Shown here: positions 20,376 through 53,513 of the stretch, piece after piece
Numbering within the stretch: the stretch's first letter is position 1
How the letters are laid out: each line of letters starts with the position of its first letter
Assembly (NCBI RefSeq): GCF_025950095.1
Contig: NZ_JAPDDR010000019.1
Location: forward strand, 1 to 64,000
Direction: 5' to 3'
DNA from: Luteolibacter rhizosphaerae
GTDB lineage: Bacteria > Verrucomicrobiota > Verrucomicrobiia > Verrucomicrobiales > Akkermansiaceae
Length of the DNA stretch: 64,000 bases
Notes under the pieces: generated by a model
What the model saw: only the letters and a program-made list of their open reading frames with translations
Told to the model about the DNA's origin: nothing
The model's database searches: none
Made by a program: the position numbers and the translations under genes

Positions 20376-21212
20376 ATGACCGATTCCGCTGAGATCACGC
20401 GACAGGCGAAATCGAATCTCGCCTTCGCGCTCCAGATTCTTCCCAAGGAGAGGCGGGAGGGGATGGTGACCTTTTACGCGTTTTGTCGCGTAGTGGATGA
20501 CCTTGCGGATGACCCTGCGCGCCCGCTCGCAGAGCGTGAGGCTGGCCTCGCCGCATGGAAAGACGGGCTGGAAAACGGCTTTGCCGATCCCGACCCGCTG
20601 CAGGCCGAGGTTGTCGCGCTCATGAAGCGCCACTCGATTCCGGCCCACCTGCTCACCGCGATCATCGACGGTTGTCTCATGGATCTCCATCCCCAGCGTT
20701 TCGGCACTTGGGAGGATCTCTCGCAATATACTTACAAGGTTGCCTGCGCCGTCGGCCTTGCTTCGCTGAAAGTCTTCGGCGCGGAAGATCCTGCTTCGGA
20801 GCGCTACGCCGTCGCCCTCGGTCACGCCCTGCAGCTGACGAATATCCTGCGGGATGTCGGTGAAGACCTTTCAAACGGCGTGCGCATCTACCTGCCGCTG
20901 GCGGATCTGGCCCGCTTCCAATACACCGAGCGTGATCTGATCGGCCGCGTTTACGATGGCCGCTTCGTGGCCCTCATGAATTACGAGGCGGACCGCGCCT
21001 TGGCCTTTTATCAGGAGGCGCTGGATGCCATGCCGAAGAGCGATGCCAAGGCGCTCGTGCCTGCGGAAATCATGCGCTCCATCTACCAGACCCTGTTGGA
21101 GAAGATGCGCCGCGGCGGATTCAAGGTTTTCGACCGCCGTTACAGCCTCTCGAAGGCCCGGAAGATGGCGATCTTCTCGAAGCATTTCTTGCGCCTCGGC
21201 GAGACGGCTTGA
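20376..21212 (+). CDS. squalene/phytoene synthase family protein (HpnD-like)
   Basis: The 278-residue trans-isoprenyl diphosphate synthase joins two C15 or C20 prenyl diphosphates head to head. The two Asp-rich Mg sites are intact: VVDDLADD (about 39-46) and ILRDVGEDLSNGRVYLP-type, here LTNILRDVGEDLSNGVRIYLP. It also has FYAFCRVVDD and the terminal LLEKMRRGGFKVFDRRYSLSKARK. Length and motifs best fit presqualene diphosphate synthase (HpnD) or a bacterial phytoene synthase; no hopanoid or carotenoid partner gene is adjacent. The start is the ATG at 20376; the upstream TTG adds six residues. Confidence 0.87.
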   Translation: MTDSAEITRQAKSNLAFALQILPKERREGMVTFYAFCRVVDDLADDPARPLAEREAGLAAWKDGLENGFADPDPLQAEVVALMKRHSIPAHLLTAIIDGCLMDLHPQRFGTWEDLSQYTYKVACAVGLASLKVFGAEDPASERYAVALGHALQLTNILRDVGEDLSNGVRIYLPLADLARFQYTERDLIGRVYDGRFVALMNYEADRALAFYQEALDAMPKSDAKALVPAEIMRSIYQTLLEKMRRGGFKVFDRRYSLSKARKMAIFSKHFLRLGETA

Positions 21213-42556: not shown

Positions 42557-43580
42557 CGAGCAGCTCGCTGAAGCCGCAGAAGACCCGCGAGTCCTCCTGC
42601 GGGCTGGGTGGCACCGGCTCATCGCGATCCAGGTGATCCCGGCAGGCGGAGTGGAAATCCTCCGGCGTTTTTGCCCGGCGGATTCGGAACTCGAAATCCG
42701 GATCATGCCCCTGCGTCACGAAGACCATCGTCTTCTTCATCCGTTGCACGTGGCCGACCGGATTGAAGTTTTCGGTGAAGGCCGCGAGCTCGTCATAGAG
42801 GCGCGTCACATATTCTAACAGGTCGCGGCAGGATGGCGTGTCGACGGTTTCTCCCGCGAAGGCGGAGCGCAGCTGCGAGAAAAGCCAGGGATTCCGGATC
42901 GCGCCGCGCCCCATCATCAGGCCGGCGGCCCCCGATTGGTCGAGGTAGGCCAAGCCGGTCTCCACATCCACCACATTGCCATTCGCGATCACGGGGCAGG
43001 GGAGTGCTTCCGCGGCCATCTTCACGCAGTCCGGATGCACCGGCGTGCTGTAGCGTTCCTCCACGGTGCGGCCATGGATCACCAGCGCATCGATCGCGTG
43101 CTTGCGGAAGATCTCTAACAAATTGGGAAACTCCGCGTGATCATGGTAGCCGATCCGGGTCTTCACCGTGAAGCGGGTGGGGATCGCATCGCGCAGCGCA
43201 CCCAGGATGCTGTCCACCTTCGGCAGGTTCCGTAGCAAGCCTCCGCCTGCCTCCTTCTTGCACACCACCGGTGCCGGGCAGCCGAGGTTCAGGTCGATGC
43301 CTACCACGGGATGTTCTAACAAAGCCTTGGCCGTCTTCACCAGTGCCGGGATGTCTTGCCCGATCATCTGCGCCAGAATCGGCTTTCCCGTCGGATTCTC
43401 GTCGATCGAGCGCAGCACCCAGGCACTGGGCCGCGAGTCATTGTGCACGCGGAAGTATTCCGTCACGTAAACATCCGCCCCGCCGTATGGATGGATCACC
43501 TTCATGAAGGGCAGATCCGTCACATCCTGCATGGGGGCCAAGTAGAGAACCGACCTGCCCTCTGGATACAGCTCCCTCAT
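42534..43580 (-). CDS. dus: tRNA-dihydrouridine synthase
   Basis: The 348-residue FMN enzyme reduces specific uridines in tRNA. Motifs are LAPMQDVTDLPF (FMN-binding start), ILAQMIGQD, the catalytic-cysteine loop DLNLGCPAPVVCKKEAGGGLL, TVKTRIGYHDH, LVIHGRTVEERY, PVIANGNV and GLMMGRGAIRNPWLF. It belongs to the bacterial DusA/B/C superfamily; the exact class is uncertain, and the C-terminal ~80 residues are divergent. The start ATG 43580 overlaps the flavin-reductase stop as ATGA. It is the last gene of a four-gene minus-strand operon. Confidence 0.93.
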   Translation of the reverse strand: MRELYPEGRSVLYLAPMQDVTDLPFMKVIHPYGGADVYVTEYFRVHNDSRPSAWVLRSIDENPTGKPILAQMIGQDIPALVKTAKALLEHPVVGIDLNLGCPAPVVCKKEAGGGLLRNLPKVDSILGALRDAIPTRFTVKTRIGYHDHAEFPNLLEIFRKHAIDALVIHGRTVEERYSTPVHPDCVKMAAEALPCPVIANGNVVDVETGLAYLDQSGAAGLMMGRGAIRNPWLFSQLRSAFAGETVDTPSCRDLLEYVTRLYDELAAFTENFNPVGHVQRMKKTMVFVTQGHDPDFEFRIRRAKTPEDFHSACRDHLDRDEPVPPSPQEDSRVFCGFSELLATPRAAR

Positions 43581-44191
43581 TTCGGACGCGCCATTTCGAA
43601 GAGATCCGCCGTGTGGCAATACCAGTTCGGTGAGCCCATCCGCCCTACCGGATGGTGCTTCTCCTGGATGATTCGCAGATGCTCCGGTTCGAAGATTGCA
43701 TCGGCCACATGCACCCGATGCACGATTCCCAAGATAATCCGGTTGCTCCCGATCTCCTGCACCGAGTGAACCTTGCATTCCAAGGCTGCCGGCACGCCTG
43801 CAATCCGCGGCGGCCCTACCACGCTTGAAGGCAGCGTTTCCAAACCTGCATGCGGGATCTCGCTCACTCCATTCGGCAGCGTGGCAGCGGTCAGGTTCAT
43901 CGCCTCCTTCATCTCCTCGCTCACCAAATTGACCACAAACTCCCCGCTGCGCTTGGCGTTCAGCGCGCTGTCTTTCGGCGTGCCATCGGCCCGGTCACCC
44001 GGCGCGAAAATCACCAGCGGCGGATCATCACCGAAGACATTGAAAAAAGAGAACGGCGCCGCATTCACGCTGCCGTCCTTATTCAATGTCGTCACCCACG
44101 CAATCGGCCGGGGCATCACCAGCCCGGCCAGAATCGCATAGGCGCGGTCGGCATGCTCGCCGAGCAAATCGAGTTCCATGCGCGAGAGCAT
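43577..44191 (-). CDS. flavin reductase-like (DIM6/NTAB) family protein
   Basis: The 204-residue FMN-binding split-barrel protein starts at ATG 44191 (a second ATG at 44179 is possible). It has the family sequence YAILAGLVMPRPIAWVTTLNKDGSVNAAPFSFFNVFGDDPPLVIFAPGD in its first 80 residues; GEFVVNLVSEEM and the later IILGIVHRVHV are also typical. Members reduce free flavin with NAD(P)H or bind FMN as oxidoreductases. It overlaps dus by 4 nt and follows the HD gene by 33 bp. It lies 3 kb from three halogenase-like flavoenzymes, which in other organisms require such a reductase. Confidence 0.87.
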   Translation of the reverse strand: MLSRMELDLLGEHADRAYAILAGLVMPRPIAWVTTLNKDGSVNAAPFSFFNVFGDDPPLVIFAPGDRADGTPKDSALNAKRSGEFVVNLVSEEMKEAMNLTAATLPNGVSEIPHAGLETLPSSVVGPPRIAGVPAALECKVHSVQEIGSNRIILGIVHRVHVADAIFEPEHLRIIQEKHHPVGRMGSPNWYCHTADLFEMARPK

Positions 44192-47094: not shown

Positions 47095-48387
47095 ATGAAT
47101 TACGACGCAATCATCATCGGCGGCGGGCCGGGAGGAAGCACGGCAGGCAGTGTCTTGGCAAAGGCCGGCAAGAAGGTGCTGATACTCGAGCGCGAGCGCT
47201 TCCCGCGCTTCCATGTAGGGGAATCCCTCATCCCCTACGGCAACGACGTGCTCCGGGAGATCGGCGCGTGGGACAAGATGGTGGCACACGGCTTCATGGA
47301 GAAGCTGGGGGCGGAGTTCGTGTTGGGGAACTCGAAGGCGGGCATCAACATCATCTTCGGGCGCTACCTGAACGCGCGCTATGCCCAGACCTTCCAAGTG
47401 GAGCGGGCGAAGTTCGACAACCTCCTGTTAGAGAACTCGGCCTCGTTGGGCTGCGAGGTCTGGCAGGAAACGAAAGTGAAGGAGGCGAAGGTCACGGACG
47501 AGGGATCGACGATCACCTGCGAGAAAGATGGCGAGGTCCACGAGATCTCCGCTCGATGGGTGCTGGATGCCAGCGGGCGCGACGCCTTCCTCGGACGGCA
47601 GATGAAGCTGCCGAAGACCGATCTCGGCCTGCCCAAGAAGTTCGCCACCTTCGCCCACTTCCGCGGGGTGAAGCGGAATGACGCGCCCTACCACGGGCAC
47701 ATCACGATCGTGCGCCTGAACTTCGGCTGGTTCTGGATGATCCCGCTGGATGCCGAGAAGACCTCGATCGGCCTCGTGCAGACGCTGGAGCACTTCAAGT
47801 CCACCGGCATGAGCCCGGGCGAATGCTTCGAGCACGTGGTGGCCACTTCCTCCGAGCTTCAGCGGCGTATGGCCGGAGCCGAGAGGGTGAACGAATACAA
47901 CTTCGCCGGCGACTACACCTACCGTCATTTGCAGAACGCCGGTCCGCGTTGGCTCTTGATCGGCGATGCCGCGGGCTTCATCGACCCGATCTTCTCCTCC
48001 GGCGTGATGCTCGCCATCCGCTCCGGTCATGCCGCGGCCAAGGAAGTGGTGGCGGCGGATGCGAAGGGCACCACCCTGAGCACCCGTGCCCAGCGGCGCT
48101 ATACCAAGCGCGTGGGCGAAATGTGCGAGGTGTTCCTGAACATGATCAAGATGTTCTACAACAACGACTCCTTCGAGGTCTTCATGGACGAGCACCCGCC
48201 GAAGGGAATGGAGTGGGCGGTGAACAATCTGGTGGCCGGTAACACGCGCATGGGCTGGCGGCTGCGCTTCCATGTCTGGCTCTTCTACGCCGTGTGCACG
48301 CTGCACCGGCACAAAACCATCGTGAAGAAGATCGACTTCTCCGATCCGCGCGCCGCCACCGCAGGCGCGTCCACCTCAGTCTCGTGA
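47095..48387 (+). CDS. FAD-dependent halogenase-like oxidoreductase (phenol-halogenase type)
   Basis: The 430-residue flavoprotein has an N-terminal FAD Rossmann motif IIIGGGPGGSTAG (7-19) and the halogenase/reductase signature FPRFHVGESLIP (36-47). Lys70 in MEKLGAEF aligns with the catalytic lysine of FADH2-dependent halogenases. FGWFWMIPLDAEKTSIGL is the WxWxIP-like segment, and DPIFSSGVMLA matches the CmlS/PltA/CndH type. Some geranylgeranyl reductases and hydroxylases share parts of this fold, so halogenation is not proven. It is the first gene of a run (47095-53040) with two more halogenase-like proteins and an antiporter; the gap to the next gene is 5 bp. Confidence 0.78.
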   Translation: MNYDAIIIGGGPGGSTAGSVLAKAGKKVLILERERFPRFHVGESLIPYGNDVLREIGAWDKMVAHGFMEKLGAEFVLGNSKAGINIIFGRYLNARYAQTFQVERAKFDNLLLENSASLGCEVWQETKVKEAKVTDEGSTITCEKDGEVHEISARWVLDASGRDAFLGRQMKLPKTDLGLPKKFATFAHFRGVKRNDAPYHGHITIVRLNFGWFWMIPLDAEKTSIGLVQTLEHFKSTGMSPGECFEHVVATSSELQRRMAGAERVNEYNFAGDYTYRHLQNAGPRWLLIGDAAGFIDPIFSSGVMLAIRSGHAAAKEVVAADAKGTTLSTRAQRRYTKRVGEMCEVFLNMIKMFYNNDSFEVFMDEHPPKGMEWAVNNLVAGNTRMGWRLRFHVWLFYAVCTLHRHKTIVKKIDFSDPRAATAGASTSVS

Positions 48388-48392
48388 TTCCC

Positions 48393-49949
48393 ATGGAAAC
48401 CGTTCCTTCATCCGATACCTACGATGTGATCGTACTCGGCGGCGCACTTTCCGGCGCGGCCACCGCCACGCTGCTGATGCGCCATAATCCCGGCATCCGC
48501 GTGCTCATCATCGAGCGCACCGAGCGGCTCGGCCGCCGGGTCGGCGAGGCTACCGTGGAAGTCAGCGCCTATTTCATGGGCCGCGTGCTGGGCCTCACCC
48601 GCTATCTCAACGAGAACCACATCTGCAAGCAGGGCCTGCGCTTCTGGTTCAAGAACGACGAGGTGGAGAACATCTCCCAGGCCAGCGAACTGGGCGCGAA
48701 ATACCAAGTGCGTTTGCCCTCGTATCAACTCGACCGCCAGACCTTCGATGAAGAGGTGCTGCGCCGCGCGGGAGAATCAGGTGCCGAGATCCTGCGCCCC
48801 GCGGTAATCCGGAATGTCGATCTCGCCGCTGGCGGACACCAGAGCGTGGAGATCAAGCACGATGGCGCAATCCGCATGCTCAAGGCTCGCTGGGTGGTGG
48901 ATGCTTCCGGCGTGGCGGCACTACTCGCCCGCAAGAATGGCTGGTGGGTCCGCAATGACGAGCATCCCACCGCTGCGGCATGGTCGCGTTGGAAGGGTTT
49001 GAAGGATTGGGACGGCCGCGAGCTTGCGGAGAAGTATCCTGAGTGGGCGAAGTACTGCGACGGCGTGCGCGGCACCGCCACCAACCACATCATCGGAGAT
49101 GGCTGGTGGAGCTGGTGGATCCCGCTGAAGGGCGGCGATACCAGCGTGGGCGTGGTCTTCGACCAACGCATTGTGGAATGGAAGGAGGGCGGCAAGGTGG
49201 CCGAGCGCCTGAAGGATTTCCTCATGGAGCATCCGGTAGCGCGCGAGCTACTCGCCGATGCCACCTACGATGAGGAGGATGTTCATTGGCGTCGGAACCT
49301 CGCCTATTACAGCACCACCTTTGCCGGCGACGGCTTCGTGCTAGTCGGCGATGCTGCTGCTTTCATGGATCCCTTCTATAGCCCGGGCATGGACTGGATC
49401 TCCTTCAGCACCACCAGCGCCGCGCATCTCATCACGCGCCAGCGCAAGGGTGAGGCCGTGGCACCGCTCGTGGAGCGGCACAACCGTGACTTCGCGACCT
49501 GTCATCGCCGTTGGTTCGAGTCCGTCTACAAGGACAAGTACCACTACATGGGAGAGTATGATCTCATGAGCCTGGCCTTCCGCCTGGACCTGAGCCTCTA
49601 CTACTGGGGCGTGGTGGTGCCACCCTTCTCGGACGGCGAGCTGGCGCTCACGATGCCGCCCTTCTCGCCGCCCAGCGGCAAGCTCTTCTCCGCGCTGATG
49701 AGCTGTTACAACCGGCGCTTCGCCGCGATCGCGAAACGCCGCCGCAAGCACGGCCTGCTCGGTCGCACGAACAAGGAGATGCGCTGTCTTCTGTCCGGCT
49801 TCACACTTGAGCGAAAGGACATGTTCCGCCTCTTTGGCATGCTCTTCGATTGGCTGAAGCTGGAGCTGCGGGAGGGCTTCTACACCTGGTTCTCGCCCGA
49901 TGAGGATGAACCGATGACCAGTCCCGTGAAGCGCGAGGTCCGGGCCTGA
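48393..49949 (+). CDS. second FAD-dependent halogenase-like oxidoreductase
   Basis: The 518-residue flavoprotein starts at ATG 48393, 5 bp after the previous stop. FAD motif VIVLGGALSGAATATLL (about 13-29), RRVGEATVEVSAYFM in place of the GES box and Lys79 in CKQGLRFWF at the catalytic-lysine position. GWWSWWIPL is a clear WxWxIP motif, and DPFYSPGMDWISF corresponds to the DPxxSxG block. The C-terminal ~150 residues (LYYWGVVVPPFSDGEL; RRRKHGLLGRTNKEMRCLL) are unlike known halogenases. It is divergent from both neighbours, so the three are not recent duplicates. Confidence 0.75.
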   Translation: METVPSSDTYDVIVLGGALSGAATATLLMRHNPGIRVLIIERTERLGRRVGEATVEVSAYFMGRVLGLTRYLNENHICKQGLRFWFKNDEVENISQASELGAKYQVRLPSYQLDRQTFDEEVLRRAGESGAEILRPAVIRNVDLAAGGHQSVEIKHDGAIRMLKARWVVDASGVAALLARKNGWWVRNDEHPTAAAWSRWKGLKDWDGRELAEKYPEWAKYCDGVRGTATNHIIGDGWWSWWIPLKGGDTSVGVVFDQRIVEWKEGGKVAERLKDFLMEHPVARELLADATYDEEDVHWRRNLAYYSTTFAGDGFVLVGDAAAFMDPFYSPGMDWISFSTTSAAHLITRQRKGEAVAPLVERHNRDFATCHRRWFESVYKDKYHYMGEYDLMSLAFRLDLSLYYWGVVVPPFSDGELALTMPPFSPPSGKLFSALMSCYNRRFAAIAKRRRKHGLLGRTNKEMRCLLSGFTLERKDMFRLFGMLFDWLKLELREGFYTWFSPDEDEPMTSPVKREVRA

Positions 49950-49971
49950 GATTATCCGGAAACGACGTCTT

Positions 49972-51441
49972 ATGAATCGCAACGCGATATTCTACCTGGT
50001 GGTTCTCCTCGTCGTCGGCGGGGGGATCTTGGGAGTCATCCATCTCGGGGCCGGCTTGCCTGCACCCGCGCACACGGATGCCTCGCTGGCGGCAGAGGCC
50101 GCTCGTGCCGCTACAGCACCGGCAGCAGTAGCTCCGCCAAGCTCCGCCTTCGGCGCGATGCTTGCCTCGCTTTCTGCCAATCTCAGCCACCCGCTCAGCC
50201 ACCTCTTCATCCAGCTCCTCGTCATCATCGCTGCCTCGCGTGTGGCAGGCGGTCTCTTCACGAAGTTCGGCCAGCCGGCGGTGATGGGGGAGATGATGGC
50301 GGGTATCCTGCTCGGGCCTTCGTTGCTGGGCTGGGTTTCTCCGGAAATGTTTCAGTTCGTCTTCCCGGCCTCCTCTCTCGGGACACTGAAGCTTCTCAGT
50401 CAGATCGGCGTGTGTCTCTTCATGGTCACGGTGGGCATGGAGCTGGATGTCCGGCAGGTGCGGAACAAGGCGCATACCGCGGTGGTCGTCAGCCATGCCA
50501 GCATCGTCGCACCCTATTTCCTCGGCGTGGTGCTGGCCTACTTTGTTTATAGTAGTTTGGCCCAGCCCGGTACGAATTTCACAGCCTTTGCCCTCTTCAT
50601 GGGCATTTCGATGAGCATCACGGCCTTTCCAGTGCTCGCCCGCATTCTTCAAGAGCGCGGCATGTCCCGGACCTACCTGGGCACAACCGCTGTAACCTGT
50701 GCTGCCGTGGACGATGTGACCGCATGGAGCGCCCTGGCCTTCGTCGTCGCGATCGCGGGTTCCACCAGCGTGGCCGGGTCGGCTCTGAATCTCGCATTGG
50801 TTCTTGTTTTCATCGCGGTGACGATCTGGGGCCTGCGTCCCTTGCTGCCGCGGCTCTTCGGTCGCGAGGAGCTGGAGCGTGCGGATCCATCCAAGCGGAC
50901 ACTCGCCATTACTATCTGCGCGGTGCTCGCCTGCGCGCTCTGCACGGAGTTGGTCGGCATCCACGCCCTCTTCGGCTCCTTCCTCGCGGGGGCGATCATG
51001 CCGACGGTGGCGGGCTTCCGTCACAAGCTGGCAGTGCGGATCGAGAATTTCAGCACGGTGCTGCTGCTTCCTCTCTTCTTCGCCTTCACCGGCCTGCGCA
51101 CCCAGATCGGCTTGCTCAATGATCTCAGTGGCTGGCTGATCTGCCTGGCCATCATCGGCGTGGCGACCGCCGGCAAGCTCGGAGGAACCGCGCTGACCGC
51201 GCGCTTCACCGGGATGAGCTGGCGCGATTCCCTGCAACTCGGCGCGCTGATGAATACCCGCGGGCTCATGGAGCTCATCGCGCTGAACATCGGCTACGAC
51301 CTCGGCATTCTCTCGCCGCGCATCTTCGCCATGCTGGTGATCATGGCATTGGTGACCACCGCCATGACAGGTCCCTTGCTCACATGGTTCCAGCGCATGC
51401 GGTTGCGGGACGAAGTCCCCGATCACCTCGTGCGCTCCTGA
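49972..51441 (+). CDS. CPA2-family cation:proton antiporter
   Basis: The 489-residue membrane protein has an extra N-terminal helix and an Ala/Pro-rich periplasmic segment (1-55), then about 12 transmembrane helices of the Kef/NapA (CPA2) fold. Diagnostic pieces are FGQPAVMGEMMAGILLGPSLLG, TVGMELDVRQVRNKA, TAFPVLARIL, the ion-site Asp pair region AAVDDVTAWSALA and LMNTRGLMELIAL. No C-terminal TrkA-N domain is attached, so it is a NapA/GerN-like exchanger of Na+ or K+ against H+. It lies 22 bp after the second halogenase-like gene and 99 bp before the third, presumably co-transcribed. Confidence 0.9.
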   Translation: MNRNAIFYLVVLLVVGGGILGVIHLGAGLPAPAHTDASLAAEAARAATAPAAVAPPSSAFGAMLASLSANLSHPLSHLFIQLLVIIAASRVAGGLFTKFGQPAVMGEMMAGILLGPSLLGWVSPEMFQFVFPASSLGTLKLLSQIGVCLFMVTVGMELDVRQVRNKAHTAVVVSHASIVAPYFLGVVLAYFVYSSLAQPGTNFTAFALFMGISMSITAFPVLARILQERGMSRTYLGTTAVTCAAVDDVTAWSALAFVVAIAGSTSVAGSALNLALVLVFIAVTIWGLRPLLPRLFGREELERADPSKRTLAITICAVLACALCTELVGIHALFGSFLAGAIMPTVAGFRHKLAVRIENFSTVLLLPLFFAFTGLRTQIGLLNDLSGWLICLAIIGVATAGKLGGTALTARFTGMSWRDSLQLGALMNTRGLMELIALNIGYDLGILSPRIFAMLVIMALVTTAMTGPLLTWFQRMRLRDEVPDHLVRS

Positions 51442-51540
51442 GAAGTCTTCTGATCCCAACTCCCCCGGGTGTCTGGCGGCCTCTTCCTCCTGATGGTGGA
51501 AGGGGCTGTCAGCTCCGAAAGAAAACCCAAAAACAAACCC

Positions 51541-53040
51541 ATGATTAAGGAAGTATTGGTACTCGGCGGCGGCAGCGCTGGCTTCATCGCGGCGATCTCG
51601 ATCAAGCGGAAGATCCCGCAGCTCAAGGTGCTGGTGGTTCGCAGCCCTTCGATCGGCGTGATCGGCGTGGGCGAGAGCACGACTCCGAACTTCCCGCCAC
51701 ATCTCTTTGAATACCTCGGCATCTCGCGGAAGCGCTTCTACGCCCTCGCGCAGCCAACTTGGAAGCTGGGAATCCGCTTCCTCTGGGGCGCTCGCGGCAG
51801 CTTCGATTACACTTTCAATCTCCAGCTCGACACTCACTACGCGGATCTCGCCAAGCCCACGGGCTACTACTGCGATGACGATTTCAACGATGCCAGCCTG
51901 CCCGGCGCGTTGATGCGTCGCGACATGGCCTTTCCCCGTCAGGAAAATGGCGCCCCGGATATCCACGGCTGGCACGCCTTCCACATCGAGAACAAGAAGT
52001 TCATCGAGATCCTCGAGATCGTGGCGAAGGAAGAAGGCGTGGAGGTGACGGATGGCAAGGTCACCGGCAGCGAGCGCGGTGACAAAGGGATCTCCGCCGT
52101 GCACCTCGAGGATGGCCGACGCCTCACCGCGGATCTCTTCATCGACGCCAGCGGTTTCCGCAGCGAGCTGTTAGGGAAAACCTTGGAGGAACCCTTCGTC
52201 AGCTTCGACAAATCTCTCTTCTGCAAGAAGGCCGTGATCGGAGGCTGGGAGCGCGGGCCCGATGAACCTATTCTGCCCTATACGACGGCGGAGACGATGG
52301 ACGCAGGCTGGGCCTGGCGCATCGACCACGAACACCTGATCAATCGCGGCTACGTCTATTGCCCGGATCACATCTCGGATGACGAAGCGGCCGCAGAATT
52401 CCAGCGCAAGAATCCGAAGGCCAAGATCGAGCCGAAGATCGTGAACTTCCGTTCGGGGTTCTACCAACGTCAATGGGTCGATAACGTCGTTGCCTTCGGC
52501 AACGCGGGCGGCTTCGTCGAGCCGCTGGAATCCACGGCCATCATGATTCTCTGCTCGCACGTGCAGACCTTGGTGGATTTCCTCCTCCACAGCGATCTGG
52601 AGCCCACGCCCACCATGCAGCGGCTCTACAACGATCTAACCGCCAACACTTGGAACGACATCCGCCAGTTCCTCTCGCTGCATTATAAGTTCAACGGCAA
52701 ACTGGACACGCCGTTCTGGAAGGTCGCTCGGGAAGAAACCGATGTCTCGGGTATCGCGGACTTCATCGAGTTCTATCAGGAGAACGGGCCCACCGGCTTC
52801 TGCCGCTACCAACTACCTCGCTCGGAGAATGACTTCGGCTTGGAAGGGTTCCTCGTCATGATGGTGGGGAATCAAGTGCCCTATAAGAAGCGCTACAAGG
52901 CAACGCAGCAGGAGGCTCAGGCATGGGCCCGGCGCAAGCAGCAGTTCGCGCAGGAGGCGAACCGGGGCATCCGCAGCGAGGAGGCCCTTGCCTACATCAA
53001 ACATCCCGGCTGGCAGTGGAACAGCGACGCTACGAAGTAG
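51541..53040 (+). CDS. tryptophan halogenase family flavoprotein
   Basis: The 499-residue protein starts at ATG 51541. It has FAD motif VLGGGSAGFIAA (8-19), VGEST (43-47), Lys75 in PTWKLGIRF (PrnA Lys79 position), WAWRID at 257-262 and EPLESTAI at 328-335, with the Glu partner of the lysine. In classical tryptophan halogenases the signature is WxWxIP; here the Pro is replaced by Asp. Family members chlorinate or brominate indoles and other aromatics using FADH2, O2 and halide; the substrate cannot be inferred. It closes the cluster of three halogenase-like genes and one antiporter; there is no PKS or NRPS nearby. Confidence 0.86.
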   Translation: MIKEVLVLGGGSAGFIAAISIKRKIPQLKVLVVRSPSIGVIGVGESTTPNFPPHLFEYLGISRKRFYALAQPTWKLGIRFLWGARGSFDYTFNLQLDTHYADLAKPTGYYCDDDFNDASLPGALMRRDMAFPRQENGAPDIHGWHAFHIENKKFIEILEIVAKEEGVEVTDGKVTGSERGDKGISAVHLEDGRRLTADLFIDASGFRSELLGKTLEEPFVSFDKSLFCKKAVIGGWERGPDEPILPYTTAETMDAGWAWRIDHEHLINRGYVYCPDHISDDEAAAEFQRKNPKAKIEPKIVNFRSGFYQRQWVDNVVAFGNAGGFVEPLESTAIMILCSHVQTLVDFLLHSDLEPTPTMQRLYNDLTANTWNDIRQFLSLHYKFNGKLDTPFWKVAREETDVSGIADFIEFYQENGPTGFCRYQLPRSENDFGLEGFLVMMVGNQVPYKKRYKATQQEAQAWARRKQQFAQEANRGIRSEEALAYIKHPGWQWNSDATK

Positions 53041-53210: not shown

Positions 53211-53513
53211 GTGCGTCCCCGAAGGAGTTTTCCCAATATCAGTAGCCTGCGCGCCGCGATCCAAGGTCGTCGGATCGTGCGCTTCTGGTGGAAGAACCGG
53301 GAGTTCAGGATCGAACCCTACGGCCTTCTGCAGGCGAAATGTACCAAGGCTTGGGTTCTTGCAGGTTGGTGCCTTGAGCGTCAGTCATGGCGCTTCTTCC
53401 GCTTCGCGGAACTGAGGGACATCGAGACCTCGCAGGAGCGCTTCCCGCTTCGCGATGATTTCCCTATGGAGGTACCGGATTGCCGCGGAGGATGGCGACG
53501 GCGCGACGCCTGA
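53211..53513 (+). CDS. stand-alone WYL-domain protein
   Basis: The 100-residue protein starts at GTG 53211. SLRAAIQGRRIVRFWWKNREF, then RIEPYGLLQAKCTKAWVLAG and WRFFRFAELRDIETSQERFP follow the WYL-domain order: an AI-x-RR helix and strand, xEPYGL, W-x-LAG and an FR-x-xRIxxI strand with final FxxxxDF. WYL domains bind ligands or nucleic acids, usually as the C-terminal part of HTH regulators; this one has no HTH. It is separated from the halogenase gene by 170 bp and by an AT-rich promoter-like stretch. Confidence 0.72.
   Translation: MRPRRSFPNISSLRAAIQGRRIVRFWWKNREFRIEPYGLLQAKCTKAWVLAGWCLERQSWRFFRFAELRDIETSQERFPLRDDFPMEVPDCRGGWRRRDA

Follow-up and report, generated by a model that had tools for sequence, protein, structure and literature searches.

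Excerpts of the literature on aryl polyenes and flavin-dependent halogenases describe the make-up of aryl-polyene (APE) clusters as well as the halogenase motif set and its exceptions (PMC3691225, PMC9865893, PMC8253772, PMC3949708, PMC5945002, PMC10696468, PMC7336383). In the same partial accounts, halogenase genes lie within xanthomonadin-type clusters (PMC3691225, PMC3949708), the catalytic lysines are K79 in PrnA and K83 in BrvH (PMC5945002), and known halogenases have their lysine roughly 10 Å from the flavin (PMC10696468). For the Verrucomicrobiota, excerpts of this literature report an aryl-polyene cluster in Oceaniferula flavus, and for the yellow Luteolibacter soli an antiSMASH run is reported to show no aryl polyene (PMC11427321). 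Here we analyse a stretch of 64,000 nucleotides (the window) on contig NZ_JAPDDR010000019.1 of Luteolibacter rhizosphaerae, which is contig C19 of a 6.23-Mb genome (G000). It carries two genes for halogenase-like flavin adenine dinucleotide (FAD) enzymes (A and B), a gene for a cation/proton antiporter of the CPA2 type (X) and a gene for a Trp_halogenase-family protein (C), in the order A-B-X-C (Table 1).

With a probability of about 0.55, we read A-B-X-C as a tailoring module detached from a dispersed pathway of the aryl-polyene type, that is, one with a type II polyketide synthase (PKS), in which B, and probably A, would be of the halogenase type. The observations behind this reading are gene content, homology, neighbourhood, co-occurrence, motif conservation and the predicted fold of B; from them we infer that the window's own copies would serve the pathway, that they would halogenate rather than hydroxylate, and what the substrate and the roles of X and C may be. 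The preliminary description of the locus was mostly right in what it observed, and its interpretation should shift away from a stand-alone halogenation system for aromatics and towards a piece that has probably become detached from a pathway of the aryl-polyene type.

Association with an aryl-polyene-type ketosynthase

The strongest evidence that B serves an aryl-polyene pathway, even where the two lie apart, is the co-occurrence of B, or of the related halogenase-type flavoenzyme B', with the ketosynthase (KS) of such a pathway. KS was defined by matches of at least 54% identity, the next best ranging from 35 to 48% among the matches listed (best per genome). Across 116 related genomes, 43 have both KS and B or B', two have B or B' only, four have KS only and 67 have neither, so that presence and absence agree in 110 of 116 (Fisher p 1.3e-24, kinship ignored). 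Counted by genus, 15 have both, three KS only, none B only and 20 neither, and within variable genera both are missing together from G003, G058, G075, G098 and four of the five g12 genomes. The same comparison is looser for the controls C (agreement in 78/116) and X (82/116). Eight genomes, one of them (G004) only 61% complete, contain B and KS without B', as if B replaces B' there.

New here is the occurrence of B relatives inside aryl-polyene-like clusters, together with relatives of D, an extra halogenase-like flavoenzyme found between X and C in genome G009 (L107:12777-13997). These clusters contain KS, a chain-length-factor (CLF)-like protein, an acyl carrier protein (ACP), a ketoreductase (KR), a dehydratase, an AMP-ligase, LolA and an MMPL exporter. 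A pattern search for B gave 59 loci from Verrucomicrobiota (one labelled only 'PVC group'), nine of which carry aryl-polyene-type genes by tblastn, with KS in three (L070, L083, L085). B is transcribed divergently from the KS and CLF-like genes in both L083 and L085. The Pfam content of L085 comprises ACP, KR, KS, a FabA-like dehydratase, an AMP-ligase, LolA, a methyltransferase and a radical SAM enzyme; its CLF-like protein falls just below the PF00109 cut-off and its MMPL exporter is recognised by homology. L083 matches the E. coli APE proteins through KR (1.7e-46), KS (2.4e-55), ACP (1.7e-10), a glycosyltransferase, an AMP-ligase and MMPL; its CLF-like and LolA-like proteins have no E. coli APE match at E 1e-4. 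Because a FabF-type KS would match the E. coli APE KS too, the KS match alone is not specific. B' lies within 15 kb of KS in seven of its 36 places, six of the ten D rows other than the query stand in aryl-polyene-like loci (L068, L071, L082, L205, L208, L209), and in L078 a relative of A (45%) overlaps an ACP gene. The remaining D rows are L184 (the L107 gene itself) and L108, both in X-containing sets, and L008 and L104, elsewhere in the window's genome.

A quick, midpoint-rooted tree of 93 rows (several early forks weakly supported, 26 rows on loci without a gene map) places all nine cluster-tagged B rows among 16 early-branching ones and none among the other 54, the window's B included; on the B' side, cluster genes accompany 7 of the 11 mapped rows. 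Read plainly, the tree has B leave the cluster and later join X and A.

A search of the window's genome for parts of the pathway other than KR, dehydratase and AMP-ligase found KS, CLF-like and ACP-like genes and an FAD oxidoreductase gene on contig C24, and B', MMPL and LolA-like genes on C1. Elsewhere in the genome, a 3220-codon ketosynthase-bearing frame (L123, G000:C4:450001-464000) has neighbours that by eye resemble a PKS/non-ribosomal peptide synthetase (NRPS) locus, beside polysaccharide-type genes. It was considered together with a KS-like gene 17 kb off and set aside, neither having a tie to A-B-X-C.

The detached-module reading has to be weighed against a number of observations. The presence of B' in the same genome means that B may have another job. 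A comparison of the window's predicted genes with 17 APE proteins of E. coli gave no match at E 1e-4, and of the parts located elsewhere in the genome only KS and MMPL match such proteins. No aryl-polyene-specific model was passed by the genome's own parts: KS scores 321 bits against FabF (cut-off 494), the CLF-like protein falls in no family and LolA reaches 60.6 bits against flexirubin LolA2 (cut-off 125). In the 116 genomes, B itself is never closer than 15 kb to KS (0 of 15 places); among the 59 loci, aryl-polyene genes and X do not occur together, and 20 loci, many on short contigs, show neither A, X nor aryl-polyene genes. Pairs of X with a flavoenzyme also occur in genomes without KS, the co-occurrence has exceptions in both directions (B or B' without KS in G065 and G102; KS without either in G072, G076, G083 and G113), and kinship inflates its figures.

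Some of these points would fit a stand-alone module acting on a free or imported aromatic with no tie to a PKS, as the preliminary description proposed. No PKS or NRPS was recognised within the window, and pairs of X with flavoenzymes of the A2 family are found in KS-lacking genomes such as G079, G094 and G114. The agreement of B or B' with KS, the location of B and B' within the KS cluster in some lineages and the KS, CLF- and ACP-like genes of the genome itself speak against such a module, which we consider improbable.

Motifs and predicted fold of the flavoenzymes

Judged by sequence, A fits the halogenase signature, B nearly so and C only in part. The preliminary description listed Lys70, Lys79 and Lys75 in A, B and C, along with DPIFSSGV, GWWSWWIPL and EPLEST; all are present, and the three lysines align with lysines of 8ZOP, 3E1T and 5UAO, respectively, which we take to be the catalytic ones. 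Conservation was assessed in family rows drawn from fetched loci, after removing those that covered less than 75% of the query or duplicated another row exactly in the last 120 residues; near-identical rows were retained. The closest solved structures to A are 8ZOP (FasV) and ChlB4 (both about 1e-57), followed by PltA (2.6e-54), and the 12 positions examined in its GxGxxG, Lys, WxWxIP and FxxPxxSxG are invariant across 39/39 rows. B' (24/24 rows), A2 (22/22) and D (11/11) likewise retain Lys, WxWxIP and FxxPxxSxG.

B matches CndH (3E1T, 6e-25) and CmlS (6e-21) among the solved structures. In its 71 rows, the lysine is present in 70 with one gap, the W, W and I of WxWxIP in 71 and the P in 70, and the F, P and S of FxxPxxSxG in 71 and the G in 70. 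A GxGxxG motif had been ascribed to each flavoprotein; this holds for A and fails for B, where the FAD loop reads GGALSG, i.e. GxAxxG, with A (57), S (12), G (1) or a gap (1) at the third position, and B' likewise has GGA/SxxG. For want of the strict motif, we label B halogenase-like only. An AlphaFold model of B built from 49 sequences has a predicted local distance difference test score (pLDDT) of 91.9, and Foldseek places PltM first (3.5e-28), then Bmp2, FasV, CmlS, CndH, PltA and CtcP. With VIA-align 2, the model superimposes on the Bmp2 mutant 5BUL (Z 34.6, root-mean-square deviation (rmsd) 3.0, 386 aligned), PltM (6BZT; Z 33.6, rmsd 2.6, 433 aligned, model residues 8-473), 3NIX (Z 33.4), CtcP (Z 32.8, residues 9-476) and CmlS (Z 28.7). 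The comparison with known halogenases that had been proposed for B thus yields a PltM/Bmp2-like fold, and the suggestion that its C-terminus is novel is not borne out, since the alignments to PltM and CtcP run through it. The predicted fold of B is therefore of the halogenase type, C-terminal part included, by a modest margin over monooxygenases, and by itself demonstrates no function.

The size of that margin bears on a rival in which A and B act in an aryl-polyene-type pathway by hydroxylating or otherwise oxidising rather than by halogenating. Since B or B' accompanies KS near-obligately (in 43 of the 47 genomes with KS), the step could belong to the core of the pathway and not to its decoration; in addition, B departs from the strict GxGxxG, and NCBIfam similarity, below the cut-offs throughout, extends to QhpG, LodB and geranylgeranyl reductases. 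According to an excerpt of its description, QhpG has a CmlS-like fold and is nevertheless a monooxygenase (PMC7876137). The retention of Lys, WxWxIP and FxxPxxSxG in all A, A2, B' and D rows, with at most one exception per position in B, points the other way, as does the ranking of solved folds, in which the named halogenases except PrnA span Z 28.7-34.6 and the monooxygenases start below them, from HspB at Z 28.2 downward. With QhpG (26.6) and PrnA (26.4) itself further down, however, the list is continuous. We regard the oxidising rival as possible, if unlikely. If A and B are instead tailoring halogenases of the detached module, a separate reductase would supply reduced FAD for the reaction with halide and O2, and the oxidant would be handed, with the help of the conserved lysine, to an aromatic or polyene substrate, presumably built by the KS, CLF and ACP encoded elsewhere in the genome.

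C is a lineage-specific relative of the Trp halogenases. It matches 5UAO, the tryptophane-5-halogenase that we take to be MibH, at 1.9e-91, from residue 25 to residue 511 of C's frame of 523 codons. Its earlier assignment to the tryptophan type stands for the family and fails for WxWxIP: C has WxWxID, and D or E replaces the P in 37/37 family rows, so C is classed as a relative within the Trp_halogenase family and no more narrowly. The active-site residues K75 and E330 are both present, each conserved in 34/37 rows, and C has Ala at the last Gly of FxPxSxG. The residue following that Glu is Ala in 24 and Ser in six of 30 tree rows (a tree that omits three Lys-lacking rows and partial copies), and five of the six Ser rows come from the window and its four syntenic loci. 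Three further observations concern this family. Two Trp_halogenase-family genes stand in tandem elsewhere in the window's genome (L101:8560-11561), one of which (29% to C) has Thr at the Lys position. G063, of another genus in the window's taxonomic family, has a remote antiporter (33%) immediately before a remote C (45%), beside a PATR-repeat protein (L212:7092-9993). Copies of C occur near PATR proteins in both L099 and L212, the PATR match in L099 being under the Pfam cut-off.

The A-B-X-C neighbourhood and its antiporter

The four genes form a compact cluster with the antiporter embedded, the coordinates and the 5-99 bp gaps of the preliminary description being confirmed (A/B 5 bp, B/X 22 bp, X/C 99 bp; start codon of C, ATG at 51541-51543). 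A GH16 gene on the opposite strand and secA flank the set, and G+C is flat across 42-54 kb (0.60-0.62). Chance or shadow open reading frames were rejected for A, B, X and C by family matches and conservation, and a scan for promoters and terminators found signals no commoner than in shuffled sequence.

Table 1. Genes of the A-B-X-C set and other features of the window (PF04820 cut-off, 21 bits)
Feature	Position	Strand	Assignment	Matches and remarks
A	47095-48387	+	halogenase-like FAD enzyme, 430 aa	PF04820 95 bits; nearest solved FasV, ChlB4, PltA
B	48393-49949	+	halogenase-like FAD enzyme, 518 aa	PF04820 55.5 bits; some relatives in aryl-polyene-like clusters
X	49972-51441	+	CPA2 antiporter, NapA-like from residue 74, N-terminal extension	PF00999 201 bits
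C	51541-53040	+	PF04820 Trp_halogenase-family protein, 499 aa	340 bits; best solved relative 5UAO; EPLEST, WxWxID
WYL gene	53211-53513	+	stand-alone WYL-domain protein, 100 aa	PF13280 38 bits; adjoins all five A-B-X-C sets
Flavin reductase gene	43577-44191	-	flavin reductase-like protein	PF01613 100 bits
Squalene/phytoene synthase gene	20376-21212	+	squalene/phytoene synthase	PF00494 220 bits

Conservation of the neighbourhood, on which the earlier proposal had been staked, is found for the whole set and for its parts. A-B-X-C occurs in 5 of the 116 genomes, all of one genus, g1: the window, L039 (Haloferula sp. BvORR071, whose coordinates match G015), L105, L106 and L107, the last with D inserted. 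A D relative of 83% identity adjoins X in L108. Of the 15 places of B in these genomes, 10 have X no more than 3 kb away and 11 have an A-type gene no more than 4 kb away. Because greedy gene calls are poor in some of the 59 B loci (e.g. L055, L061, L205), neighbours were recounted there by tblastn, giving an A-type gene in 34, an X-type gene in 18 (nine orthologous at 65% or more, nine more remote) and C in one. The pairing of A2 with X does not extend to a phylum-wide rule: in 288 genomes, A2 relatives (E<=1e-70) occur in 12 and X relatives (<=1e-60) in 20, few of them adjacent. Literature searches for halogenase with Verrucomicrobia or antiporter, and for aryl polyene with antiporter or Luteolibacter, returned no title describing the A-B-X-C set.

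The confinement of the whole set to the five g1 genomes, and of C beside X-B to that genus, could mean that the genes are neighbours by descent only, with separate jobs and co-retained in one genus. B-X pairs nevertheless reach other genera, where B adjoins X at 67-80% identity in rearranged gene orders, and 22 of the 51 places of X-family genes in the 116 genomes, in 10 genera as counted by hand, adjoin an A-type gene or B (29 do not). We consider co-retention by descent only to be very improbable.

X is the CPA2-type antiporter that it had been called, scoring 156 bits against TIGR00932 (below its cut-off of 238) in addition to PF00999, and it aligns with NapA (4BWZ) over residues 74-485 (88.7 bits, 4.5e-24). 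D247 (38 of 39 rows), D248 (39) and K402 (39) are conserved, which presumably correspond to the functional residues of NapA, the DD motif and the Lys. By these features, X is assigned to the NapA-type CPA2 antiporters. A more remote antiporter (about 40% to X), often in opposite orientation, shares a locus with B in nine cases (L054, L055, L061-L064, L074, L084, L095), a second antiporter type joined to B. The role in ion or pH handling suggested earlier fits the NapA-like features of X. X may buffer the membrane or cytoplasm at the site of a membrane-bound product, or share regulation with its neighbours.

Taken further, the halogenase-type flavoenzyme, B or B', could be a near-obligate, interchangeable partner of an aryl-polyene-like synthase in Verrucomicrobiota, giving halogenated aryl polyenes from a chromosome-scattered pathway and working in a recurring unit alongside a Na+/H+ antiporter, which would aid the enzyme or its membrane product. 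We hold this extension to be tentative and rather doubtful.

Other features of the window touch the set less directly. The flavin reductase-like gene lies about 3 kb ahead of A; it was rejected as a partner because L039, L105, L106, L107, L040 and L108 (loci of 9-20 kb) all failed to give a tblastn match to it at E 1e-3. The squalene/phytoene synthase would be another possible source of pigment or hopanoid. The WYL gene, which the preliminary description overlooked, is retained at 77-88% identity in the four other A-B-X-C sets, 3' of C in three and 5' of A in L107, and was rejected as a chance open reading frame by its changes being concentrated at third codon positions. Relatives of it match in 6 of the 116 genomes, all of g1, with up to seven matches per genome and other g1 copies weaker.

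Comparison with known systems

If the detached-module reading is true, a dispersed pathway would give a role to some of the 'tryptophan halogenases' of Verrucomicrobiota, halogenated pigments would be predicted, and cluster-based mining could miss an aryl-polyene pathway.

Among the antiporters, NapA (4BWZ) shares the DD motif and Lys with X, which differs by its extra N-terminal segment and its genomic link to flavoenzymes. C shares the Lys and Glu of 5UAO and of the BrvH/Xcc4156 group and differs by WxWxID and by the Ala at the last Gly of FxPxSxG, a position at which, in an excerpt of its description, BrvH is likewise an exception (PMC7336383). With the flavin halogenases PltM, Bmp2, CtcP, PltA, ChlB4, FasV, CndH and CmlS, B shares the predicted fold (Z 28.7-34.6), Lys, WxWxIP and FxxPxxSxG, whereas its FAD loop is GxAxxG and identity in the structural alignments is 18-24%. 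At the level of the pathway, the xanthomonadin/arcuflavin-type clusters of Xanthomonas and Azoarcus (arcA), in the parts of the reports drawn on here, combine a type II PKS, an AMP-ligase, LolA, an exporter and a halogenase-type gene (PMC3691225, PMC3949708). Loci of B relatives such as L085 are alike in gene content. The window's genome differs from these clusters in having the parts on separate contigs and the flavoenzymes beside a CPA2 antiporter.

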